Source of the DNA: a virus
Direction: 5' to 3' (one strand)
Virus record (IMG/VR): IMGVR_UViG_3300017987_000152
Location: 1 to 43,940 of that record
DNA: 43,940 bases
Part shown: one piece after another, positions 12,222 to 34,516 of the stretch
Position numbering within the stretch: the stretch's first letter is position 1
Layout of the letters: the number at the start of each line of letters is the position of its first letter
Notes under the pieces: model-generated
The model's input: the letters and a program-made list of their open reading frames with translations, nothing else
Database searches by the model: none
Told to the model about the DNA's origin: nothing
Translations under genes and position numbers: made by a program

Positions 12222-12602
12222 TCACGGCGTGAGCCAGATCCCATCGGGGGTCCACTGGTCCACGTAGAGGCCGGGGGCCGGCGGATCCCAGCCCTTGTTT
12301 GTGAGGTCGACCATGCGGTTGTGTTTTCTGTTTGTGCCCAGAGGCACGAACGTCAACCATTCTGGGCCATCGCCCAGGATGACCTCGAACAGGCTTCGGC
12401 CCCGGAGGGCCTCGACCTCCTCGATCGACATGACGTCGCTCGGGAGAGGGCACCGGTCGACTCCAGCACTTCTGCACGCACCGCCCTTTCGAGCGGCGAG
12501 GACGCTCCTCGACTGTCGCCGAGGGAGGAGCGGCAGGCCCTCCCTAACTTCGCATCCGAGATCGTACGTTCCGTGAATAACCACGCAGTTGTTCGTCTTC
12601 AT
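12222..12602 (-). CDS. Hypothetical protein in leftward operon
   Basis: This 126-residue protein of unknown function starts at ATG 12602 behind AAAGGA, which directly follows a GC hairpin and a 32-bp promoter-like repeat. The N-terminus (NNCVVIHGTYDLGCEV) is followed by an Arg-rich segment, and the C-terminal half has an acidic helix and beta strands (LFEVILGDGPEWLTFVPLG, LYVDQWTPDGIWLTP). Three Cys are spread in residues 6-50, but no clear zinc site is formed. As the last gene of a small leftward unit with its own promoter-like element it may be an early host-interaction gene; that is inference. Confidence 0.6.
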   Translation of the reverse strand: MKTNNCVVIHGTYDLGCEVREGLPLLPRRQSRSVLAARKGGACRSAGVDRCPLPSDVMSIEEVEALRGRSLFEVILGDGPEWLTFVPLGTNRKHNRMVDLTNKGWDPPAPGLYVDQWTPDGIWLTP

Positions 12603-12615
12603 GTCTCGTTCCTTT

Positions 12616-12635
12616 CCCCCTCTATATCGAGGGGG
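12616..12635 (-). promoter_or_regulatory. 5' leader hairpin upstream of the gene at 12602
   Basis: On the - strand, CCCCCTC and GAGGGGG form a seven-pair stem around a six-base loop, immediately before AAAGGAACGA and the start codon. A hairpin of different sequence but the same position and shape precedes the gene at 13314, so structure is conserved while sequence is not. A transcript-stabilising or translation-enhancing leader is likely. Confidence 0.5.
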
Positions 12636-12638
12636 GTG

Positions 12639-12687
12639 TATGGTTTCGTGTATATATATTATCCCGAAACGAGACCGCCATTTTTAG
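12639..12687 (-). promoter_or_regulatory. Repeated promoter-like element, copy 1
   Basis: Bases 12639-12670 are identical (32 of 32) to 13348-13379. Read on the - strand the element has CTAAAAA, ten unconserved bases, then GTTTCG-GGATAATATATATACA-CGAAAC and CATA. TAAAAA (12686-12681) and GATAAT (12663-12658) are 17 bases apart, the spacing of a sigma70-type promoter. GTTTCG/CGAAAC is an inverted repeat flanking the AT-only core and may bind a regulator. The AT core stands out in GC-rich surroundings. It would drive the gene at 12602. Confidence 0.65.
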
Positions 12688-12688
12688 A

Positions 12689-12940
12689 TCAGGCGTGTTT
12701 GCGTAGCGTGGCCCATAGTTCCTGCTCTTCGGGCGTGGCTTCCCCGTGACGCTCGCCCCTGACGCAGTCGTACTTCTGCCGCATCAGCCTCTTTGGATTG
12801 GACTGCTCGACGAAATAGCCCTCACTCTCCCAGGGGCTGAACGTCTCAAGGCACAGGGCGTACATGCGCCTCCAGTGAACGCCGGAGGGCGTGGCCTCGG
12901 CGAGTCGGGTGATGGCGTCGATCCTCTGCTGCTCAATCAT
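12689..12940 (-). CDS. Hypothetical protein in leftward operon
   Basis: This 83-residue, helix-rich protein of unknown function has its start set at ATG 12940 by AAAGGAG seven bases upstream. It contains WRRMYALCLETFSPWE and a basic middle (NPKRLMRQKYDCVRGERHG), then an acidic helix with EEQELWATLRKHA at the end. It is separated from the upstream gene by an intrinsic terminator, so it probably has its own promoter; TATAAA lies 32 bases before the start but no clear -35 box is seen. The downstream promoter repeat begins two bases after its stop. Confidence 0.6.
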   Translation of the reverse strand: MIEQQRIDAITRLAEATPSGVHWRRMYALCLETFSPWESEGYFVEQSNPKRLMRQKYDCVRGERHGEATPEEQELWATLRKHA

Positions 12941-12986
12941 GATCACTCCTTTGGTTGTGGGGCGTTGTTTATAGCGTACTGTCCAG

Positions 12987-13021
12987 AAAAAAAGAAGCGC
13001 CAACCTGGATAGGGTGGCGCT
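12987..13021 (-). terminator. Intrinsic terminator of the gene at 13033-13314
   Basis: On the - strand AGCGCCA (13021-13015) pairs with TGGCGCT (13002-12996) and is followed by TC and seven T (A-run at 12987-12993 on +). It lies about 12 bases past the stop of the upstream leftward gene. This is a textbook intrinsic terminator. Confidence 0.75.
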
Positions 13022-13032
13022 CCTCTTCTTGG

Positions 13033-13314
13033 TCAGTGGCTGAGCTTGTCGGCAAGCTCAGCCATGAACGTGTGCGCTTCAAGGAGAGGACCCTCGTGGC
13101 CCTCCCCCTCCTCGCCGTAGAAGGCCGCGATGGCCTCCCACCTCTCCTTCCCACGCTCCTCTGCGAGGAGCGCGTTGACGACGACGGTGGGGCCCTCGCC
13201 CCACGTTGTCTGGAAGGTCCTCATTCTCTTGATGGCGTCCCGGCTTACGTACTGCCTTTCGGAAGTCGAATAAGCCAGGGAGTGGGGCAGCGAGATGATG
13301 TCAATGGCAATCAT
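13033..13314 (-). CDS. Hypothetical protein in leftward operon
   Basis: This 93-residue protein of unknown function starts at ATG 13314, preceded by AAAGGAACGA, a GC hairpin and the second promoter repeat. It opens with a hydrophobic strand (IAIDIISLPHSLAYS), then basic and acidic helical segments (SRDAIKRMRTFQTTWGEG, VVNALLAEERGKERWEAIAAF) ending in FMAELADKLSH. No motif is recognised. It forms a single-gene transcription unit, bounded by its own promoter-like element and a strong terminator, typical of small phage genes acting early on the host. Confidence 0.6.
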   Translation of the reverse strand: MIAIDIISLPHSLAYSTSERQYVSRDAIKRMRTFQTTWGEGPTVVVNALLAEERGKERWEAIAAFYGEEGEGHEGPLLEAHTFMAELADKLSH

Positions 13315-13326
13315 GTTCGTTCCTTT

Positions 13327-13343
13327 CCCCTCCAGCGGAGGGG
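13327..13343 (-). promoter_or_regulatory. 5' leader hairpin upstream of the gene at 13314
   Basis: CCCCTCC and GGAGGGG pair perfectly around a three-base loop, directly before AAAGGAACGA and the start codon. It is the positional equivalent of the hairpin at 12616-12635, with compensating sequence differences. Confidence 0.5.
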
Positions 13344-13347
13344 CGTT

Positions 13348-13396
13348 TATGGTTTCGTGTATATATATTATCCCGAAACCAGAGGGCTGTTTTTAG
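13348..13396 (-). promoter_or_regulatory. Repeated promoter-like element, copy 2
   Basis: Bases 13348-13379 repeat 12639-12670 exactly. TTTTTAG (13390-13396 on +) again lies exactly ten bases from the inverted repeat although those ten bases differ between copies, so the two boxes are separately conserved. Read on -, TAAAAA is 17 bases from GATAAT (13372-13367). The TAA of the upstream gene's stop codon lies inside the TAAAAA box. It should drive the 13314 gene. Confidence 0.65.
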
Positions 13397-13989
13397 CTCC
13401 TCAGTCGCTTCTCTACTGCCGTCCGTATGACGTTCAGGTCGCACTTGCGAGCGTCGGGTCTGGCCATGAATGTGCGGACGACGTCGTCGATCTGACTCCC
13501 GAGCTCACGCTCTACGATTTGGATCGCGGCCTCCCGTGCCTTGGCCAATCGCTTCGCCTCGACCTCTCGCCAGTGCTCTTCCCAGGCCGCGAGCTCGAGC
13601 GCGCCCCAGACGATCTGAATCAGTCTGCCCTCGAGCGCCTCGGGTAGCAGTGGCATGCCGTCAGGGTCATGCGAGGGGTCGGGCGTCTCGAACAGGTCGT
13701 CGGGCATCCATGAGCCCTCGCGATCTACCCTGACCATGCTCCAAGACAGGTTGATGTGGCCCTCACTTGTGCCTGGATAGGCGTCTGCCGTCGTGTGGCC
13801 CACCGCTAAATCGAAGCCTTTCGTCCATGTGTCGAAGGCGTCCTTTATCTCTGCGATGGGTAGGCCGAAGGTTTCGAAGTGGATCGTGGCCTCGACCCGT
13901 ACCATTTCGACTCGCTTGCCGTCACTCTCCCATGAGGTCACCCTGAAGCCTGTCGGGTCGATATTGATGTCGGGGTTGATGACTTTCAT
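13393..13989 (-). CDS. Hypothetical protein, first gene of leftward cluster
   Basis: This 198-residue protein of unknown function has its start placed at ATG 13989 because AGGAG lies seven bases upstream and the product begins MKVINPDINIDPTGFRV. The first ~110 residues look like an alpha/beta domain (VEMVRVEATIHFETFGLP, GHINLSWSMVRVD). The C-terminal 80 residues are a long charged helix (ELAAWEEHWREVEAKRLAKA) and a short Cys-containing end. It is transcribed divergently from the winged-helix regulator at 14103 and shares a 113-bp intergenic region with it, so the two may be co-regulated. Confidence 0.6.
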   Translation of the reverse strand: MKVINPDINIDPTGFRVTSWESDGKRVEMVRVEATIHFETFGLPIAEIKDAFDTWTKGFDLAVGHTTADAYPGTSEGHINLSWSMVRVDREGSWMPDDLFETPDPSHDPDGMPLLPEALEGRLIQIVWGALELAAWEEHWREVEAKRLAKAREAAIQIVERELGSQIDDVVRTFMARPDARKCDLNVIRTAVEKRLRS

Positions 13990-14022: not shown

Positions 14023-14051
14023 ATTATCACCAGATGACACCTTGTTTTAAT
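14023..14051 (-). promoter_or_regulatory. Leftward promoter of the divergent region
   Basis: Read on -, GATAAT (14028-14023) is preceded 17 bases upstream by ATTAAA (14051-14046), and ACGAAC follows it. This resembles the two repeated elements (TAAAAA, 17 bases, GATAATA, ACGAAAC) in weakened form. It lies 34 bases before the ATG at 13989. Its upstream box overlaps the -35 region of the opposite promoter, so the two probably compete. Confidence 0.5.
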
Positions 14052-14069
14052 GCGTACCTTCCGTATGAT
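14042..14069 (+). promoter_or_regulatory. Rightward promoter before the winged-helix gene
   Basis: TTGTTT (14042-14047) and TATGAT (14064-14069) are separated by 16 bases, a good fit to a sigma70-type promoter. AAAGGAG and the ATG at 14103 follow at the expected distance. It would open the long rightward unit that includes the replication genes. Confidence 0.55.
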
Positions 14070-14102
14070 AAAAGACTCCAACGCCAGACAAAGGAGTGTG
14101 TC

Positions 14103-14561
14103 ATGAAGGCGAAAAAGTCCATCAAGGAGCGTGCTCTCCTGATGATCGAGGAGTCCGGCGACATGGGCTTCACCACATCTGAGATCACGGCGCGCGTGGG
14201 CGGCCTGCATCAGACGGTCTCTGCCCGTGTGCATGAGCTCATCAAGGCCGGCAAGATCAAGGACTCGCAGCGTACGCGCAAGACTGAGCGGGGAATCGAC
14301 GCTACCGTGTGGGTTGCCACGACGCTCGAGGAGCGTCGCGCTGCCCGAGAGGCCGGCGCGACGACGAGAGAGCGCATCTCGGCGCACGGCAAGCGCGTGT
14401 CGGAGATCGCCGGGCGTATCGAGAACCTGAGCTACGATGAGCTGCACAACGTGCTCGAGTTCATCGATCGTGGCGCGGTCTCGATGAAGAAGCTGGGCGA
14501 CCAGGCGGTCAGGGATCACATCGCATCTCAGGTTGAGTCGGCCAGCCTCTTTGGCGCCTGA
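14103..14561 (+). CDS. Winged helix-turn-helix DNA-binding regulator
   Basis: The 152-residue product starts at ATG 14103 behind AAAGGAG. Residues about 5-65 form a winged-helix domain: helix IKERALLMIEESG, then MGFTTSEITARVGGLHQTVSARVHELIKAG as the recognition unit, and a wing with ERGIDATVWVA. The remainder is a charged helical region with LSYDELHNVLEFIDRGAVSM, possibly for dimerisation. As first gene of the rightward unit, opposite a divergent leftward gene, it is a good candidate for the regulator of the early region, and a perfect palindrome lies about 1.1 kb downstream at 15240. Target site and effect are unknown. Confidence 0.7.
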   Translation: MKAKKSIKERALLMIEESGDMGFTTSEITARVGGLHQTVSARVHELIKAGKIKDSQRTRKTERGIDATVWVATTLEERRAAREAGATTRERISAHGKRVSEIAGRIENLSYDELHNVLEFIDRGAVSMKKLGDQAVRDHIASQVESASLFGA

Positions 14562-20239: not shown

Positions 20240-20705
20240 TGAAACCCACGACCCGGACACCTGTGTGGCGATCTTGGTCCCTGGCTCGAGGCGGCGCACG
20301 TTCAAGGCCGAGTTCAAGCAGGACTTCGTCGCCGGGGGGCAGTCCCTGACCATAGACGGGATCCCGACGAACCAGCAGAAGGCCGAGATGCTCGCGCGGG
20401 TCATGCTCAGCGCCAACATCGAAGCGCTCGAGTGTAAATACGTGATCGCCAACGGCGAGCTTTGGGTTGTCGATGTGCTGGGCGAGGGGCTTGGCGTCGC
20501 CGACTCGTTCCGCCTCATGTCCGTCGTCGGGCAGGCAATGGGGCTCGCCCTGCCCTACACTCTGCCGGTGTGGTCGAAGGGCGATTGGCAGGCTTGGGCA
20601 AAGTGGGCGAAGGCCTGCAAGACCCCCTATGGGGACCACAAGATCGGTGAGATTCGTGTCGTGTGTGTCAGTGAGGAAAAGGAGGAGATGTGGACTATCT
20701 CGTGA
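20232..20705 (+). CDS. Hypothetical protein
   Basis: This 157-residue protein has ATG 20232, preceded by AAGGA, overlapping the previous gene by eight bases. It has an alpha/beta pattern: DTCVAILVPGSRRRTFKAEF, a helix NQQKAEMLARVMLSANIEAL, strands CKYVIANGELWVVDVLGEG and a Trp-rich segment SKGDWQAWAKWAKA, then IGEIRVVCVSEEKEEMW. I do not recognise the family. It lies between dnaE and the first exonuclease and overlaps the latter by 16 bases, so it belongs to the replication operon. Confidence 0.55.
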   Translation: MFDETHDPDTCVAILVPGSRRRTFKAEFKQDFVAGGQSLTIDGIPTNQQKAEMLARVMLSANIEALECKYVIANGELWVVDVLGEGLGVADSFRLMSVVGQAMGLALPYTLPVWSKGDWQAWAKWAKACKTPYGDHKIGEIRVVCVSEEKEEMWTIS

Positions 20706-21379
20706 TGGTCGAGACGAGGCGTGGGTACTACGAGCACCTTTACAACAAGCCGCCGCGTCCCCGTAGGCCGTTCATTCTCAACGTGACGGCGCCTAGCGAG
20801 GCGGCGGCAAGGCTCAAGGCCCACTACATTGCTGATGGCATGGGGCTGGGCCAGGTCGTGGTTCGACACGCCGAGGTGAGGAGCTTTGGCCCGGACGCGG
20901 CGTCCCTGCCGGACATCCCGTGGTACCAGGCCAAGATCGGCGTGTTCGACCTCGAGACCACGGGGCTCGACGTCGAGCGCGATTGTCCGGTTGAGATCGG
21001 TGTTCTCGAGTACGACCTCGCTTCGAAGTCGTTTACGAACGCGAAGACGTGGATGGTCAAGCCCGACTGTCCGATGAGCCCCGGCGCTCAGGCGGTCCAC
21101 AAGATCCCCGAGGAGGCGTGGGCCGACGCGCCAGAGATCTCGGAGGTCGCGCACGAGATCAAGGAGCACCTCGAGTCGTTCGACGTTCTGATCGCACACA
21201 ACGACGGGTACGATCAGCCGATGATCAGGCACACGCTGGCGCGCCATGGGGCTCACGTGAACATGCCGCCAACATGGTGCAGCATGCTGCTCGCGCTGAA
21301 CGAGATCGACGAGGGCAGGCTGCGCCAAGGCAAGGCGAAGCTCGCTTCTCTCCGAGGAGCTGGGGCTACCCCTCCCTGA
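20690..21379 (+). CDS. DnaQ-like 3'-5' exonuclease, N-terminal portion before frameshift
   Basis: The 229-residue frame starts at GTG 20690 behind GGAGGAG. After an ~80-residue N-terminal extension it shows the DEDD exonuclease motifs I (VFDLETTG, Asp87/Glu89) and II (IAHNDGYDQPMI, Asp175). Motif III is missing because the frame runs out: after KAKLASL it reads RGAGATPP and stops. The +1 frame continues with SEELGLPLPEAHRAEYDAA, which supplies motif III (H-x-A-x-x-D). The full enzyme would be about 290 residues and would be expected to proofread or trim DNA 3' ends beside DnaE. As read, the product lacks an essential active-site part. Confidence 0.75.
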   Translation: MDYLVMVETRRGYYEHLYNKPPRPRRPFILNVTAPSEAAARLKAHYIADGMGLGQVVVRHAEVRSFGPDAASLPDIPWYQAKIGVFDLETTGLDVERDCPVEIGVLEYDLASKSFTNAKTWMVKPDCPMSPGAQAVHKIPEEAWADAPEISEVAHEIKEHLESFDVLIAHNDGYDQPMIRHTLARHGAHVNMPPTWCSMLLALNEIDEGRLRQGKAKLASLRGAGATPP

Positions 21380-21569
21380 GGCCCACCGCGCAGAGTACGA
21401 CGCGGCGGCCGCCGGGGATCTGTTCATGACGCTGGCTCGTGGCAATCCCTTCTTTCGGTCGCGCCCCTCGTTCGTCGAGGCCTGTGCATACATGCTCGGG
21501 CTCAAGATGCCTGCGGGGCCGCTCAAGCCTTTGAATCTCAAGACTATGTGGGAGAGGGCTGGCCTGTGA
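21351..21569 (+). pseudogene. C-terminal part of the DnaQ-like exonuclease in a shifted frame
   Basis: Reading from 21351 in the +1 frame gives 72 codons with no stop until TGA 21567-21569: SEELGLPLPEAHRAEYDAAA, then AGDLFMTLARGNPFF and a basic end. It contains the missing exonuclease motif III and a natural C-terminus that overlaps the next gene's GTG (GTGA), as elsewhere in this genome. No ribosome site or start codon is placed to express it alone. The junction is GCTTCTCTCCGAG; loss of one TC from a CT repeat, a sequencing error, or a ribosomal frameshift would each explain the break. Confidence 0.7.
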
Positions 21570-22195
21570 AGATCCTGTGGTTTGACTACGAGACCGGGGG
21601 CTTTGCCCCGTCGCCCAACTGCGAAATCGTCGAGGCCGGCTGGGTCGTCACCGAGGGTGACGACCTGAAGGTGATCGAGCGTGCGAACCACATCGTGAAG
21701 GTGGAGCACCCGATTCACCCTCGCGCTGTCGAGGTTCACGGCATCACCTACGAGCAGTGCCAGCGGGAGGGGATCCCCTGGGTGGAGGTCGCGCAGAAGA
21801 TGCTCGACTCGCTGGAGGGGTGCGTCGCGGTCGCGGGTCACAACTCTGCGTTCGACGTGCGCTTTTCGAAGTTCTGGTTTGGGTGGGCCAACCTCGAGTG
21901 GCCTGAGCTCCACGAGATCTGCACGCAGGACCTTGCGAACAGGTGGGTGCCCAAGAGCGAGTTCAAGTCCCGCAAGCTCGAGCGTCTTTACGAGCACTTC
22001 GTGGGAGAGTCGACGGGAGAAGCGCACCGCGCGCTCTACGACGTTGAGATGACCGTCGACCTGGCCAGGAAACTGCTCGAGAAGGGGCAGTCGAAGATCA
22101 GCGACGTCGTCTCCGGTGGGCCACTGCACGTCAATGGTATGGTGGGGCAGGATGAATACTCCGCCATGCTCGGCGGATACAAGCGCAAGGGCTGA
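21566..22195 (+). CDS. DnaQ-like 3'-5' exonuclease (intact DEDD family)
   Basis: This is a 209-residue intact exonuclease. Motif I is WFDYETGG (Asp7, Glu9), motif II AGHNSAFDVRF, and motif III EAHRALYDVEMT, the H-x-x-x-x-D arrangement of DnaQ/RNase T type enzymes. HPRAVEVHGITYEQC corresponds to the region between motifs I and II of DnaQ homologues. The start is a GTG in a GTGA overlap with the upstream exonuclease frame. It is well placed to serve as the proofreading subunit for the phage DnaE, whose PHP domain looks inactive; it could instead act on RNA or nicked host DNA. The C-terminal 40 residues are Gly-rich and specific to this protein. Confidence 0.82.
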   Translation: MKILWFDYETGGFAPSPNCEIVEAGWVVTEGDDLKVIERANHIVKVEHPIHPRAVEVHGITYEQCQREGIPWVEVAQKMLDSLEGCVAVAGHNSAFDVRFSKFWFGWANLEWPELHEICTQDLANRWVPKSEFKSRKLERLYEHFVGESTGEAHRALYDVEMTVDLARKLLEKGQSKISDVVSGGPLHVNGMVGQDEYSAMLGGYKRKG

Positions 22196-23621: not shown

Positions 23622-24498
23622 CCCTGGGTTCTTCTGGCAGGACAAGATCGCGGCGTACTGGCCCGATGCGATCGAGCCCCCGAGCGTTGGCGGCCGCGGC
23701 GAGGCCACGGGCCACGTGGCGCAGTTCCTCCACGAGGGGCAAGTGAAGGTTGCCTACCCCACGGGCACGCCCTCTGATGCCCTCGCTTCGTCGATGTACT
23801 TCTTGGCGCAGGCCTCTCGCGGCGTGTTCGAGAAGCAGGCTCTGCTCGACATCGCCGGGGCGCTCAAGAGTGCACGCGACGCGTGGGGTGTCCGCATGCC
23901 GGACGGTTACGTCACGAGCTTGGCGAGCGACATGGGCAAGGTGGCGAGCGTCGAGCACGACCCAGCTCACCGGGCAGATGCGTTCGTTAAGAGGGCGTCT
24001 GAGTGGTCTCCGGCGAAGCGGCTCGAGAAGAGCCTTGAGATCTCTGCGGAGCTTGAGGCGCACCAGAAGGATGCGTCTCACATGCCGTACATGGATTGCG
24101 GACTCAACCCCGAGTGGGAGCGCCACATCGAAAAGCGTCGTCGCATTCTCGCCCTCGCCCAGAACGCCCCCATGTACCTCTCCCGCCTGGAGAAGATCCG
24201 TGGCGGCATCTTGAACATGGACGACTTCGACGCCGTTGCGAAGACAGCCTCGCTGCTCGAGCAGCTTGACGTTGACTCTGGCATCCGTAATGAGTGGGGT
24301 CGTACGATTCTCGACCCGGTCGACACTCTGCTCGCGCCCTTCGTCAAGGAGGCCAAGTGGGCGAAGGCCGACCTCTCGAAGCTCGACGAATACTTCGATT
24401 CGGATACGCTCGACCAGATCAAGGGCGACCCCGACGCGGTGATCCCGACCCTCCCGATGCGGCAGCGCAAGCTCGTCGAGGAGATCCTGGGTAGCTGA
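23548..24498 (+). CDS. Hypothetical protein at start of the head-side region
   Basis: This is a 316-residue helical protein. ATG 23548 is used; ATG 23554, two codons on, has better spacing to GGAG at 23540. Near the N-terminus is FYKTANLQSW, then WQDKIAAYWPDAIEPP and helical stretches (RLEKSLEISAELEAHQKDAS, WERHIEKRRRILALA, MDDFDAVAKTASLLEQL) ending in RQRKLVEEILGS. No catalytic motif is seen. Its position between replication genes and the portal suggests a virion component or scaffold; that is inference. Confidence 0.55.
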   Translation: MTMSEIPFYKTANLQSWDVIDHQDDPGFFWQDKIAAYWPDAIEPPSVGGRGEATGHVAQFLHEGQVKVAYPTGTPSDALASSMYFLAQASRGVFEKQALLDIAGALKSARDAWGVRMPDGYVTSLASDMGKVASVEHDPAHRADAFVKRASEWSPAKRLEKSLEISAELEAHQKDASHMPYMDCGLNPEWERHIEKRRRILALAQNAPMYLSRLEKIRGGILNMDDFDAVAKTASLLEQLDVDSGIRNEWGRTILDPVDTLLAPFVKEAKWAKADLSKLDEYFDSDTLDQIKGDPDAVIPTLPMRQRKLVEEILGS

Positions 24499-28408: not shown

Positions 28409-31400
28409 ATGTCAAGGCCCCGTCAAGCGCACGAGGATCTCAAGCGTAGGCTGTTCGACTACTTCAAGCGCAAGCTCGGGGTCACCGTCAAGGGCACCTC
28501 GCTCAAGGTTAACTCGATCGACGTGACCAAAGGCGGTAAGGGCAGCGCGGTGACGCGCCAGAAGCGCGCCAAAAGCCTTGGCATGAGCTACACCAGCCGC
28601 GTGCGAGCGAACATCTCACTCGAGCGGGGGGGCAAGGTCATCGACAGGGCCGACGTCAACCTCGCTGATCTGCCCGAAGTCACGAGCCGCGGAACCTACG
28701 TGGTCAAGGGGTCGGAGTATTCGTTCCCGATCCAGAAGAGGCTGCTCCCGGGCGTCTACGTGCGTGGCCACAACGATGGTGGGTACTCGGCCTGGTTCAA
28801 TACCGGAGAGGGGCGCTCGTTCAAGATCGTGATCAAGCCGTCTTCGGACGTCATTCAGGTTCAGCTCGGCGGCAAGCATATCAGCTTGTATGCGTTGCTG
28901 ACGGGCTTTGGCATGCAGCCAGAGGCCCTCAGGCGCGCACTTGGGGCCGACTCGTTCCAGGCGCAGCTCTCGGGCCGTGGAGCGAATGATTCCAAGGGTG
29001 CGATCGAGGCGCTTTACGAGTTCTTGCGCTACGAGTCCGACCCGCCCGCCGAAAAGGGCGTCGCCGGCAGAGTGGCGTGGATCAAGTCCTACTTCGACGA
29101 CGACTCGTCGTTCGACCCCGGGAACATGGATCGTCTCCTCGGCCAGCCGACAGACAAGATCTCCCCGAAGCTCATGCTGATTGCGTCCAAGAGGCTGCTC
29201 GAGGTCAAGCGCGGAGACGTCGAGGAGCACGACACCGACAACCTGAACCACGCTGGATTCTTCGACATCGCGGACTTCATGATCGAGAGGCTCGAGTCGC
29301 GACAGATGCGGTCGAAGATCACGCGTCACCTGAACCGTCGACTTCCCAAGGCTCAAAAGGTCACAGACGTTGTCGGCAAGCATCTCTTCTCGTCGGGCGT
29401 GGAGTCCACGTTCACGCAGACGGCCCTTGCTCGTGTGCCCAAGCAGAACAACCCCATGGACGTGATGTCGTCTCACACCGAGATTACGACGAGGGGCGAA
29501 GGCGGCATCGCGAACGACCACGCTGTCACGAGGGCCACGAGGGCGCTCAACCCGTCTCACATGGGATTCATCGATCCTGTTCACACGCCCGAAGGCACCA
29601 ACATCGGCACTACGCTGCACCTTGCCGTGGGCGTGACCAAGAAGGGCCGGGACCTCGTCAGGTCTGTGTGGGACGTCAAGAAGAAGAAAATCGTCGAGGT
29701 CGACCACCGCGAGTTCTACGCCTCGGCCGTGGCGTTCTCCGAGTTTTGGGACCCGAAGGCCAAGCGCCTCAAGGGGCGCAAGATCAAAGTCTCGCGGATG
29801 GGCAAGATCGACATGGTCGACCCCTCCCAGGTCAAGTACGCGATCAGGCGTGCGACCGATCTGTTCGGCGTGAACACGCTCGGGGCCCCGTTCCTGTCAC
29901 ACAACAACGGTACGCGTGGCATGACGGCTGCGAAGATGCAGTCCCAAGCCAAGCCCTTGAAGTACCGTGAGGAGCCACTCGTGCAGGCGGCCCTTCACGA
30001 GAACACGGACGAGACGATCGAAGACATCATGGGTCGTGGATCCCTGCCGCGGTCGCCCGTCAGCGGGACGGTCTTTTCCGTGTCTGAGGATGAGGTCGTC
30101 ATCAAAGACAAGGATGGCAAGAAGCACGAGGTTGAGGTCCCGCACAAGTTTTGGCTCAACGAGTCGAACTACGACTCGGTAGAGGTCACGGTCAAGAAGG
30201 GCGACAAGGTCAAGAAGGACCAAGTTCTCGGCGAGTCGAACTACACCAAGGGCGGCAAGCTCGCGCTCGGCGTCAACCTTCGGACCGCCTACATCCCGTA
30301 CAAGGGCTACAACCACGAGGACGGCGTCGTCATCTCCGAGGAGGGCTCGAGGCTCCTCACTTCGATGCATGCGCACCAACGTATCGTCAGCATGCGGGAG
30401 GGGGAGATTCTCGACCGTGGCAAGTACACTGCGCAGTTCCCCATGTCCTACAACCGCGACGTGATCGACAAGCTCGACGAGCGTGGCGTCATCAAGGTGG
30501 GCCAGAAGATCAAGCGCGGTGAGCCTTTGGTCGTCAAGATGCGTCGCATCGAGCAGGACACGGTGTCGAAAAGGCTCGCGTCGGTCTCGAGGTCCCTGAT
30601 GAGCGACTTCAGGGACGCCTCTGTCGAGTGGGACAAGTCGGAGGAGGGCGTCATCGAGGAGGTGACGTACCGAAACGATGAGGTCCTGATCGTCATTGCC
30701 ACCGAGGAGAAGGCAAAGGTGGGTGACAAGCTCGTCGGGCGCTATGGCAACAAGGGTACGATCACCAAGATCGTCCCCAACTCCGAGATGCCTCGCAACC
30801 CAGACGGGGAGGTGATGCACCTGCTCATGAACCCCGACACGGTGCCGGGGCGCATGAACCTCGGGCAGGTCATGGAGACGACGGCGTCCAAGATCGCGCT
30901 CAAGGACAAGAAGCCCTTCGTGGCGAAGCCTTTCGGTACCGATCACCGAGACAAGATCCTCAAGGAGCTCAAGAAGAGAGGCCTGAAGGACTCCGGCTCG
31001 TTGATCGACCCTGAGACTGGCACCGAGATCGAGAACGTCCTGACGGGCCACCACTACACCCTCAAGCTCGAGCACCAGGTTTCGAAGAAGATGAGCTCGC
31101 GTGGTGCTGGCATCGGCGAGAGCTATGGCCTTGACGGCCAGCCCTCCGCGGGTGGGGGGCGTGCCGTGGGTCTGAACGTCATGTACGCGCTGCTTTCGCA
31201 CGGCGCGCACGCGAACCTCAAGGAGATGTACGGCTTCAAGGGAGATCGCAACTTCGAGGCATGGCGCTCCATCGAGAATGGGACGTACATGCCTGCGCCC
31301 AAGGTGCCCGCCTCGAGCCAGAAATTCGTCGATATGCTGCGCGGCATGGGCGTCAACCTGAGCGAGGACGACAAGGGCATCGTCAAGATGACCCCGTTCC

Positions 31401-34400
31401 TCGACAAGGACGTGCGCAAGATCTCGAACGGCGAGGTCAAGGACGCGAAGGCTTTGCGCGCGAAGGACATCAAGGAGGAGAAGGGCGGCATCTTCGATCT
31501 CAACGTCACGGGTGGCCTCGCGGGCGATCGTTGGTCCCACATTGAGCTCGCCGAGCCCATGCCGCACCCCACCTTTGAGGATTCCATCCTCGCGGTGACC
31601 GGCATGAAGCGTTCGGACTTCTCAGCGATCATGAAAGGCACGAAGGGCGTGCTGGGCGGAGAGGTCGTGCCGGGCGGCACGAGCGGAGCAAAGTTTGGCG
31701 GCAAGGCAATCAAGTCGATGCTCGACAAGATCGACGTCGACAAGCGTATCGACGAGATCGCGAAGGAGTCGAAGGGGGCGCGCGGCACGAAGCTGAACAA
31801 GCTTCACAAGGAGGCGCGCATTCTGATCAACTTCCGAGAGCAGGGCGTCAAGCTTGGTGAGATGGTCGTGTCGACGATGCCCATCATCCCTCCTGCGATG
31901 CGACCTGTCTTCGACATGCCCGGTGGTGACCTGCACATCAGCGACATCAACGAGCACTACCGAGAGACGATCCTCGCCAACAACCAGCTCAAGCAGATCT
32001 CGAAGCGTCCGGGCCTCGTGGACGAGGCCCAGAAGATGAGGTCGAAGCTCTACGACGGATTGTCGGGCGTGACGGGCCTTTCGCAAGGGCTCGTCGACAA
32101 GCCGGACGTCAAGGGCATCGCCGCCACAATCGCTGGCAGCACGCCGAAGCGTGGCTACTTCCAGCGCAAACTCCTCCGTCGCCGGCAGGAGAACTCCGGC
32201 ACGGGCGTGATCGAGCCGGACCCCAAGCTCTCCATGGATGAGGTGGGCATCCCCGAGGAGATGGCCTGGGACATCTTTGGCACCTTCGGGCGTAAGGAGC
32301 TCATTCGATCGGGCATGACCCCGTTGACGGCGAAGAAGGAGTGGGAAGACCGCTCGACCATGGCGAGAGAGGCGCTCGAGCGTGCGATGAAGGAGCGGCA
32401 CGTGCTGCTCAACCGCGCGCCGACGCTGCACAAGTTCTCGATCATGGCGTTCAAGCCCAAGCTCGTCCCCGGGTACGCCGTCAGGACGCCCGTTGAGGTA
32501 CTGGGTGGTCTCAACGCCGACTTTGACGGCGATACGGCAGGCATCCACGTTCCTGTGAGTGATGAGGCGAATCGCGAGGCGGAGGCCATGCTGCCTTCGA
32601 ACAACGCGTTCGCCCCGGGCACGAAGCGTAAGAAGCTCATGCCTCAGCTCACGCGTGAGTTTTCGCTGGGCGTCTACAAGCTGACGCGGCTTGGGCGCAC
32701 CACGTCCAAGTCCTACATCGACCCGCGCGCTGCGATCAGGGATGCTGAAGCTCGCAAGATCAAGTGGACCGATATCATCTCGGTCAAGATCGACGGCAGG
32801 CGCGAACGCACGACGGCCGGCAAGGTCATCGTCAACATGGGCTTGCCCCGAGAGGTTCGGGACTTCCAGGCGACGTTCGACAAGAAGGGCATTGAGCGTG
32901 TCTTGAAGAGGCTCGAGAAGAAGAGCCCCAAGGCGTTCAGGGACGCGACGGACCACTTCAAGCACCTCGGTCGCAAGTACGCCTACCTTTCGGGCTCGAG
33001 CTTCATCCTGTCCGACCTCAAGGTCCTCGACTCCAAGCGTCGCCAGCTCTACATGGCGGCGGACAAAAAGGCCGACGCCGTGCGTCGCAACCGCAAGCTC
33101 TCCGCGGAGGAGAAGGACAAGAGGATCATCGAGATCTACGCCGCCGTGGACTCGAAGGTCGTCGGCGCGCTCGGGTCGATGGGGAAGAACTCTGGCGGCG
33201 AGACGAACAACCTATCGGACATGATCGCTTCGGGCTACTCGAAGCCTGGCGTCCACCAGCTCAAGCAGATGGTTGGGTCCGTCGGCCTGATGCTCGATCA
33301 CAACCAAAAGGTCATGCCCGTGCCCGTGCGCGGGAACTACTCGGAGGGCCTGAGCTCGAGCGAGTACTTCCAGCACATGTATGCCCAGCGAAAGGGCATG
33401 ATCGACAAGTCGCAGTCCGTCTCGGGGCCGGGCGCCCTGACGAAGCAGCTCAGCAACCCGGCGACGACGCTCAAGGTGACGATGAGCGATTGCGGCACCC
33501 GCCTTGGCAGGGTCGAGAAGGCCGACGAGCACGTCGTCGACCGCGTGCTCGCCAAGGACGTGGGCAAGTTCAAGCGTGGTGACGTCATCACAGGCGAGAT
33601 GCTCACGAAGCTCAAGGGCCAGATGATCACGGTCCGCTCTCCTCTGTCTTGCGAGGCTACGGGGGGCGTGTGCGCGAAGTGCTTTGGCTACGACGAGACG
33701 GGTAACTACCCGGCGATCGGCAAGCTCATCGGCCTGTCCGAAACGCAAGCCATCACTGAGCGTTCGATCCAGCTCCCGATGAAAGCCTTCCACTCGGGCG
33801 GCGTCGCGACAGCCGACAGTGGCCTTGCGAGCGCGTTCGACCGTGCTGTGGACATCCTGAATATGCCCGACAACGTCAAGGGCAAGGCCACACTCGCCAC
33901 GGTGACGGGCCGCGTCGACTCCATCCGCAAGACAGGCCTTGGCGGCTTCGTCGTGATGATCGCAGGCAAGCAGCATCGCGTGGGCGAGAAGCTCAAGATG
34001 CTGGTCAAGGTTGGCGACCAGGTAAAGAAGGGCGACAAGATCTCGAGCGGCATCGTCAAGCCTCAGGAGCTTCTCAAGCTCAGGGGCATGGCTGCGGTGC
34101 AGCGTCAGGTGCGAGATGACCTCCACGCGACGTACCAGTCGGCCGGCGTTAACCTCGACCGTCGCACGTTCGAGATGCCTGTGAAGATGCTCACCGAGAT
34201 GTGTCGGATCACGGACCCGGGCGACAGCAACTACATCGCTGGGGATCTGGAGACCCGGCCGAAAATCGTCTCTTGGAACCGCTCGAACCCCGGGCGCCAG
34301 CAGATCAAGTTCACCGAAGAGCTTCCGGGCGCCAATCAGCTCCCCTACCAGACGCAGGACTGGGCAAGGAGAATGGGTCTCGGGCATATTAAGAGGACGA

Positions 34401-34516
34401 TCAAGGAGGGCGTCGGCGCGGGCTACGCTTCAGATCGCAACGATTCACCCTTCTCGGGCTTGGGCCTTGGTGCCGGCGCCAAGGTCGAGCCGCCCAGCAA
34501 CTGGAGAAAAAAATGA
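28409..34516 (+). CDS. Fused beta-beta' multisubunit RNA polymerase (single polypeptide)
   Basis: This 2035-residue protein contains both large RNAP subunits in order. Beta features: LNPSHMGFIDPVHTPEGTNIG (TPEG 393-396), GMTAAKMQSQAKPL, YKGYNHEDGVVISE, KVGDKLVGRYGNKG (770-783, catalytic-centre lysines) and the C-terminal GGGRAVGLNVMYALLSHGA. Beta' features: SHIELAEPMPHP, MPIIPPAMRPVF with SDINEHY, NRAPTLHKFSIMAF, NADFDGD (1369-1375, Mg-binding aspartates), bridge-helix region NYSEGLSSSEYF, zinc site Cys1695/1748/1755/1758, and trigger loop QLPMKAFHSGG with Met1791 and His1795. The beta' N-terminal zinc domain seems absent. E. coli beta plus beta' total about 2750 residues, so this is a compact form. 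It should transcribe phage genes; sigma and alpha partners are not seen here apart from the alpha-CTD-like protein at 15622. Confidence 0.95.
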   Translation: MSRPRQAHEDLKRRLFDYFKRKLGVTVKGTSLKVNSIDVTKGGKGSAVTRQKRAKSLGMSYTSRVRANISLERGGKVIDRADVNLADLPEVTSRGTYVVKGSEYSFPIQKRLLPGVYVRGHNDGGYSAWFNTGEGRSFKIVIKPSSDVIQVQLGGKHISLYALLTGFGMQPEALRRALGADSFQAQLSGRGANDSKGAIEALYEFLRYESDPPAEKGVAGRVAWIKSYFDDDSSFDPGNMDRLLGQPTDKISPKLMLIASKRLLEVKRGDVEEHDTDNLNHAGFFDIADFMIERLESRQMRSKITRHLNRRLPKAQKVTDVVGKHLFSSGVESTFTQTALARVPKQNNPMDVMSSHTEITTRGEGGIANDHAVTRATRALNPSHMGFIDPVHTPEGTNIGTTLHLAVGVTKKGRDLVRSVWDVKKKKIVEVDHREFYASAVAFSEFWDPKAKRLKGRKIKVSRMGKIDMVDPSQVKYAIRRATDLFGVNTLGAPFLSHNNGTRGMTAAKMQSQAKPLKYREEPLVQAALHENTDETIEDIMGRGSLPRSPVSGTVFSVSEDEVVIKDKDGKKHEVEVPHKFWLNESNYDSVEVTVKKGDKVKKDQVLGESNYTKGGKLALGVNLRTAYIPYKGYNHEDGVVISEEGSRLLTSMHAHQRIVSMREGEILDRGKYTAQFPMSYNRDVIDKLDERGVIKVGQKIKRGEPLVVKMRRIEQDTVSKRLASVSRSLMSDFRDASVEWDKSEEGVIEEVTYRNDEVLIVIATEEKAKVGDKLVGRYGNKGTITKIVPNSEMPRNPDGEVMHLLMNPDTVPGRMNLGQVMETTASKIALKDKKPFVAKPFGTDHRDKILKELKKRGLKDSGSLIDPETGTEIENVLTGHHYTLKLEHQVSKKMSSRGAGIGESYGLDGQPSAGGGRAVGLNVMYALLSHGAHANLKEMYGFKGDRNFEAWRSIENGTYMPAPKVPASSQKFVDMLRGMGVNLSEDDKGIVKMTPFLDKDVRKISNGEVKDAKALRAKDIKEEKGGIFDLNVTGGLAGDRWSHIELAEPMPHPTFEDSILAVTGMKRSDFSAIMKGTKGVLGGEVVPGGTSGAKFGGKAIKSMLDKIDVDKRIDEIAKESKGARGTKLNKLHKEARILINFREQGVKLGEMVVSTMPIIPPAMRPVFDMPGGDLHISDINEHYRETILANNQLKQISKRPGLVDEAQKMRSKLYDGLSGVTGLSQGLVDKPDVKGIAATIAGSTPKRGYFQRKLLRRRQENSGTGVIEPDPKLSMDEVGIPEEMAWDIFGTFGRKELIRSGMTPLTAKKEWEDRSTMAREALERAMKERHVLLNRAPTLHKFSIMAFKPKLVPGYAVRTPVEVLGGLNADFDGDTAGIHVPVSDEANREAEAMLPSNNAFAPGTKRKKLMPQLTREFSLGVYKLTRLGRTTSKSYIDPRAAIRDAEARKIKWTDIISVKIDGRRERTTAGKVIVNMGLPREVRDFQATFDKKGIERVLKRLEKKSPKAFRDATDHFKHLGRKYAYLSGSSFILSDLKVLDSKRRQLYMAADKKADAVRRNRKLSAEEKDKRIIEIYAAVDSKVVGALGSMGKNSGGETNNLSDMIASGYSKPGVHQLKQMVGSVGLMLDHNQKVMPVPVRGNYSEGLSSSEYFQHMYAQRKGMIDKSQSVSGPGALTKQLSNPATTLKVTMSDCGTRLGRVEKADEHVVDRVLAKDVGKFKRGDVITGEMLTKLKGQMITVRSPLSCEATGGVCAKCFGYDETGNYPAIGKLIGLSETQAITERSIQLPMKAFHSGGVATADSGLASAFDRAVDILNMPDNVKGKATLATVTGRVDSIRKTGLGGFVVMIAGKQHRVGEKLKMLVKVGDQVKKGDKISSGIVKPQELLKLRGMAAVQRQVRDDLHATYQSAGVNLDRRTFEMPVKMLTEMCRITDPGDSNYIAGDLETRPKIVSWNRSNPGRQQIKFTEELPGANQLPYQTQDWARRMGLGHIKRTIKEGVGAGYASDRNDSPFSGLGLGAGAKVEPPSNWRKK

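Follow-up and report, generated by a model that had tools for sequence, protein, structure and literature searches.

How a phage that encodes its own RNA polymerase (RNAP) marks the genes to be read is the question raised by this locus, where two identical 32-bp blocks precede two small leftward genes. The window (the whole stretch of DNA analysed here) is a virus record of 43.9 kb that covers part of a large phage. A sequence-only reading had offered two answers, namely a promoter class of the phage's own RNAP or an early host-type promoter with a built-in operator. The two sites are most probably (about 0.72) early or middle promoters of a holoenzyme formed by the phage RNAP and a phage-encoded sigma factor, here called sigmaB. 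Within the first answer, the promoter class is strongly supported (CTAAA-N19/20-ATAAT, its ATAAG variant and a phage sigma factor), and recognition by that RNAP is inferred.

Repeated blocks in the window

The two blocks match exactly, as had been claimed, and GTTTCGGGATAATATATATACACGAAAC is present in exactly two copies (12643-12670 and 13352-13379, both on the minus strand). With up to three mismatches allowed, there was no third copy in the window and none in 100 shuffles, and a search of IMG/VR for the exact core returned no match. A second box, CTAAAAA, lies exactly 10 bases upstream in both copies, and the intervening bases vary as described, differing at 5 of 10 positions between copies A and B. 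The elements are as follows.

13390..13396, minus strand: -35-like box CTAAAAA, copy A (CTAAA-N20-ATAAT)
13367..13372, minus strand: predicted -10 element GATAAT, copy A, context CGGGATAAT (rank 2 in the six-genome model, rank 1 in the clade model)
13348..13379, minus strand: identical 32-bp block GTTTCGGGATAATATATATACACGAAACCATA, copy A (exact repeat)
12681..12687, minus strand: -35-like box CTAAAAA, copy B (spacing equal to copy A)
12658..12663, minus strand: predicted -10 element GATAAT, copy B (rank 1 in the six-genome model; 18.5, shuffle maximum 12.9)
12639..12670, minus strand: identical 32-bp block, copy B (exact repeat)

Searching the rest of the window for the proposed bipartite pattern, TAAAAA-N17-GATAAT, gave these two exact matches, where 0.14 would be expected even with two mismatches allowed. 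GATAAT itself occurs three times in the whole window, every time at a leftward promoter position. Both copies have a spacing of 20 between CTAAA and ATAAT, a G three bases before ATAA and the -10 context CGGGATAAT. The all-AT core of the earlier description holds over 12 bp, but it is bordered by GG and C.

The phage and its relatives

In addition to a DnaE-like DNA polymerase, tail and head proteins and a terminase, the window encodes the following enzyme.

28409..34516, plus strand: single-chain beta-beta' RNA polymerase, 2035 aa (Pfam Rpb2_6, Rpb2_3, Rpb1_1, Rpb1_2, Rpb1_5)

Residues D1371, D1373 and D1375 of this RNAP are invariant in alignment A1. Searches with the RNAP and terminase led to Arash (W02), Vibrio phages D181 (W01), D148 and D69, and more than 200 IMG/VR contigs (relative genomes and contigs carry G handles below). 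The beta-beta' enzyme of the lineage, one chain in the window, is split in some members. In the closest contigs (G001, G002, G003, G037 and G038) the RNAP is 49-55% identical to that of the window, and G039 was joined to this clade via its portal protein (42% identity). No close DNA relatives were found in the phage collection searched.

Motif discovery and scoring of the window

Literal TAAAAA-N17-GATAAT and the palindrome were counted in 15 relatives, and because the counts were close to a reversed-pattern control, unbiased motif discovery was used instead. Over-represented gapped words were collected from the upstream regions of genomes of ~180-190 kb, without use of the window sites. Words above shuffles were AAAA-N15-GATAA and ATAAGAATAGTGAACCC in G012, and GCAA-N18-GATAA and GGGATAAGAA in G013 (G014, a near copy of G013, was not counted separately); ATAAG-type words, GGTATAAG or GTTATAAG, were enriched in G009, Arash and D181. 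Aligned sites from the lineage have an A-rich box ~18 nt upstream, the -10 element G[GT]NATAAG and, 5 nt further downstream, an element resembling TG/TAC; most lie 20-100 nt before a start codon. Distant relatives with this layout include Arash, Vibrio D181 and several IMG/VR genomes. In genomes fetched later, upstream intergenic matches made up 15 of 19 in G028 and 7 of 13 in G031, and the motif was weak or undetected in G024, G027 and G029. A loose promoter pattern run across IMG/VR gave one match per contig among the matches listed.

A two-block model was then trained on six genomes, with the window excluded. Since the motif was chosen by word enrichment in the training genomes, their own statistics are partly circular; the tests on the window and on G037-G039 are not. 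When both strands of the window were scored, 12662 (minus strand) ranked first (18.5) and 13371 (minus strand) second (16.4), compared with a mean maximum of 9.1 and a largest value of 12.9 over 40 window shuffles. None of 300 column-permuted models reached 18.5, and three placed both window sites in the top four. No match of at least 16.4 was present in 126 kb of unrelated phage loci. In leave-one-out runs, upstream-intergenic sites made up 17-21 of the top 30 matches in five genomes and 7 in the sixth, G004, against a baseline of 7-18% of the genome as intergenic DNA.

The closest clade

Seven contigs of the closest clade (363 kb) were searched for CTAAA-N(d)-ATAAT; further contigs of the clade, located with alignments of the terminase and portal proteins, served as fresh data, and a home-made gene caller was used solely for labelling sites as intergenic. 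There were 12 intergenic and 0 coding matches at d = 19 and 13 intergenic and 0 coding at d = 20, while every other d from 5 to 40 together yielded 4 intergenic and 16 coding (the shuffle mean for CTAAA-N20-ATAAT was 0.45). The base three positions before ATAAT, which was not part of the query, is G in 23 of the 23 sites outside the window. An unbiased dyad count in G038 placed TAAA-20-ATAAT and CTAA-21-ATAAT at the top (5 regions; shuffle maximum 3), and the two best matches of the six-genome model in G003 are another leftward pair with CTAAA-N20-ATAAT. A clade model built from the 23 non-window sites gave the window sites scores of 33.0 and 32.8, with a window-shuffle maximum of 10.3. We accordingly define a lineage promoter class consisting of a CTAAA/NNAA box, about 18-20 nt, and G-N2-ATAA[GT]; its elements, spacing, intergenic position and recurrence can be read directly from the genomes.

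A weaker relative of the two sites had been proposed at 14023-14051.

14023..14050, minus strand: TTAAAA-N16-GATAAT, possible weaker relative, before gene 13393-13989

This site shares GATAAT and a TTAAAA box with the repeated pair, but its spacing is shorter and nothing else is shared. It ranks third in the clade model (8.3; shuffle maximum 10.3) and fifth in the lineage model, is by itself not significant under either, and is also a plain sigma-70-like consensus match, so that its membership of the class is weak and unproven. A candidate divergent rightward promoter, TTGTTT-N16-TATGAT (14040-14103, plus strand), lies before the MarR-like gene at 14103-14561 and shows no match to the phage promoter class.

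The inverted repeat as a possible operator

The GTTTCG/CGAAAC repeat had been taken as a built-in operator. Such an operator, GTTTCG-N16-CGAAAC, would cover the -10 element and start site and make the two genes a co-repressed pair, whichever enzyme reads the promoters, with the MarR-like protein at 14103-14561 perhaps as repressor. The 6-bp arms are perfect in both copies and reach 8 bp in copy A, the wHTH/MarR-like gene adjoins, and G012 has many TATTTCGNCGAAATA palindromes, some of them just upstream of its promoters. However, the repeat is weak evidence because chance should produce 0.12 dyads with 6-bp arms and a 10-20 loop per promoter-sized stretch of the window. The outer pair is also broken in copy B, the arms are missing from the 23 other clade promoters, and a recent duplication may suffice for the identity of both blocks. 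Being near chance and not conserved across the clade, the repeat leaves the operator a doubtful proposal.

Other inverted repeats were seen in relatives. In G012 (L102-L111) the palindrome TATTTC[GA]N[CT]GAAATA is present in 24 copies, 14 of them intergenic, and several promoters carry it 5-8 nt ahead of ATAAG, in the usual -35 position, where it may be an activator site. An inverted repeat GATTTACCCCC/GGGGGTAAATC surrounds the -35 box of a clade promoter in G003 (L097:3914-3975; G003 23914-23975) and lies directly 3' of a stop codon.

Leaders and downstream genes

Downstream of each block, the GC hairpins of differing sequence noted earlier fold better than shuffles, and AAAGGAACGA was confirmed 3' of both.

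13327..13343, minus strand: leader hairpin CCCCTCC-GCT-GGAGGGG in the predicted 5' UTR (-13.6 kcal/mol, z -2.87)
13317..13326, minus strand: AAAGGAACGA with Shine-Dalgarno-like AAGGA, copy A (from sequence)
13033..13314, minus strand: small gene, 93 aa, no known family
12616..12635, minus strand: leader hairpin CCCCCTC-GATATA-GAGGGGG in the predicted 5' UTR (-16.1 kcal/mol, z -4.19)
12606..12615, minus strand: AAAGGAACGA with Shine-Dalgarno-like AAGGA, copy B (from sequence)
12222..12602, minus strand: small gene, 126 aa, no known family, unrelated to 13033-13314

Family and relative searches with the two leftward proteins (93 and 126 aa) gave none. The repeat as a by-product of gene duplication was rejected, as the two downstream genes show no relatedness. 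Neither the hairpins nor the identical 32 bp around the -10 element (including the GTTTCG/CGAAAC arms) recur in the clade sites. The leader hairpins are real but look window-specific, and possible origins of the window-specific features are a recent duplication, an operator, or co-regulation of the two genes via the leader.

Sigma factors and the predicted reader

The sigma-70-family proteins of the lineage fall into two groups, sigmaB (the Arash Gp10 group) and the Arash Gp196 group. The second is missing from G012, G013 and G031, all of which have the motif. SigmaB was found in G038 as well as in each of the eleven large genomes that were searched first, and it co-occurs with the RNAP in every large genome examined. 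The members read are 234-282 aa long, the size of FliA/WhiG. Regions 2, 3 and 4 were matched weakly by Pfam in the G038 protein; among NCBIfam models, FliA/WhiG ranked best for the G038 and Arash proteins and other sigma-70 subfamilies for those of other members, and every score fell far short of the cut-off. No sigma factor was detected in the 43.9-kb window fragment, including by a PF04542 search, and the window's phage is presumed to carry sigmaB because its clade member G038 does. Mass spectrometry of purified virions of Arash, the only lineage member with a reported virion RNAP, detected RNAP beta, beta' and the sigma factor Gp10, in a paper that contains no promoter analysis (PMC10585845). 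A phage holoenzyme is favoured because sigmaB is conserved with the motif and because RNAP and Gp10 are found in Arash virions.

In the proposed mechanism, the CTAAA box would serve as the -35 element and G-N2-ATAAT as the -10 element, with 19-20 nt between them. The reader would most likely be the phage RNAP with sigmaB, the phage-encoded sigma-70-family factor of FliA/WhiG size. Transcription would start ~7 nt downstream of the -10 element and proceed leftward into the two small genes, which are probably early or middle. The transcript would have a 5' end of ~45-50 nt, with the GC hairpin just upstream of the Shine-Dalgarno sequence, and the hairpin plausibly protects this end or tunes translation.

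An unlikely alternative is that host RNAP with its housekeeping sigma factor reads both sites early, and that the phage RNAP acts elsewhere or later. GATAAT agrees with TATAAT at five of six positions, the two boxes are 17 nt apart, and the site at 14023-14050 is a plain sigma-70 match. The clade also has ATAAT in place of the lineage's ATAAG, a shift towards the bacterial TATAAT, so that host RNAP might read it as well. On the other hand, TAAAAA agrees with TTGACA at three of six positions (at least four were taken as TTGACA-like), and a sigma-70 scan does not list the two sites. The layout also recurs across phages of differing GC content and host, including Arash, whose host is Salmonella and whose -10 element is ATAAG, with G where sigma-70 wants T. 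A phage-borne reader accounts better for this recurrence. The host-type early promoter with operator is not favoured, since the -35 box of the sites is not TTGACA, the lineage mostly has G for the terminal T, and the inverted repeat is near chance and missing from the other clade sites.

It would be quite improbable that the host core RNAP is brought to these sites by sigmaB or a different phage factor, with the phage RNAP serving, for example, late CTAAAATA-type sites. Sigma factors are commonly used in this manner by phages without an RNAP of their own (PMC7598289), and Arash and D181 have CTAAAATA as a second, late-strand motif. In contrast, the Arash virion holds both RNAP subunits and the sigma factor (PMC10585845), which fits an injected holoenzyme for early transcription, and sigmaB accompanies the RNAP throughout the large genomes. 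A role of the exact 32-bp repeats in replication, packaging or recombination is very improbable, given that most sites in the lineage are found on the coding strand, 25-100 nt ahead of a start codon, and have two spaced promoter-like elements.

Timing

Most sites of the six training genomes (84 of 99) have the RNAP gene on the opposite strand, as do the window sites, and this majority holds in five genomes out of six. Of the 19 Arash sites, 18 share a strand with tRNA genes, genes of nucleotide metabolism and small unknown genes; in G038 there is no bias against the RNAP strand. A separate motif, CTAAAATA(TAG), was observed on the strand of the RNAP gene in Vibrio D181 (L010) and Arash (L011), mostly ~20-60 nt ahead of virion genes, and is likely a late promoter class. 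The strand bias and the separate motif before virion genes together suggest early or middle timing for the window class. CTAAAAA was also considered as a late-type -10 element and rejected, as it lies ~80 nt from the start codons compared with mostly 20-60 nt for CTAAAATA.

Comparison with known systems

The sigma-28 (FliA) promoter is TAAAGTTT-N11-GCCGATAA, i.e. TAAA-N19-ATAA. Its geometry is nearly equal to that of the window sites and sigmaB is FliA-sized, although the -10 context here is GGNATAAT/GGNATAAG and not GCCGATAA. Relative to sigma-70 promoters, GATAAT is one base off TATAAT and TTGACA is lacking. In phages of the phiKZ/AR9 type a conserved AT-rich element lies near the -10 position of presumed early operons, the virion phage RNAP is thought to be its reader, and RNAP-encoding jumbo phages of the phiKZ kind are without sigma-70-family homologues (PMC7598289). 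The window class resembles these in its AT-rich -10 element and in the phage RNAP as presumed reader. Where they have a single element, the window class has two, the -35-like box lying at a constant distance from the -10 element, and a recognisable sigma-70-family factor is encoded in the lineage genomes.

The lineage is likely the same as, or overlaps, mReC, the multi-subunit-RNAP-encoding Caudovirales of Weinheimer and Aylward 2020 (PMC7481178), which are large IMG/VR tailed phages whose beta/beta' resemble cellular RNAP sufficiently to be caught by Pfam or COG models; sigma factors and promoters are not mentioned in that paper. Salmonella phage Arash is a member of the lineage (RNAP 30% and TerL 26% identical to the window) with a TATAAG motif class. 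It differs in that its RNAP is split into two genes, its -10 element ends in G and its -35 element is TCAATAA-like. We give about even odds to a broader picture in which the lineage has a self-contained bacterial-style holoenzyme, with the sigma factor packaged in the virion and sigma-28-like bipartite promoters whose -10 element, in one clade, moved from ATAAG to ATAAT in step with the sigma factor, and in which the window sites are members.

Phages that encode a cellular-type RNA polymerase turn up widely in metagenomes, and the literature searched gave no account of promoter recognition by the RNAP of this lineage. The window sites probably show how the phage enzyme finds its genes. The result supplies a specific promoter sequence together with a sigma factor candidate, and Arash is a cultured member that allows a direct test of the two. 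It also offers a handle on early versus late gene classes in hundreds of uncultured genomes and possibly an orthogonal set of RNAP, sigma factor and promoter.

Additional observations

Genes at 34513, 34979, 35767, 36530 and 36931 (plus strand) and 39923 (minus strand) have a common N-terminus, MN[GA]M[IV]K[VIL]A (e.g., MNGMIKVAK and MNAMIKVAR), which looks like a targeting or processing tag. Five of them follow the RNAP gene consecutively, the remainders of the proteins differ, and comparable N-termini (e.g., MSTLIKVAK) occur in clade relatives. Two adjacent plus-strand genes (20690-21379 and 21566-22195) both match the DnaQ-like exonuclease family phrog_192, and this gene pair is also present in G003 and G038.
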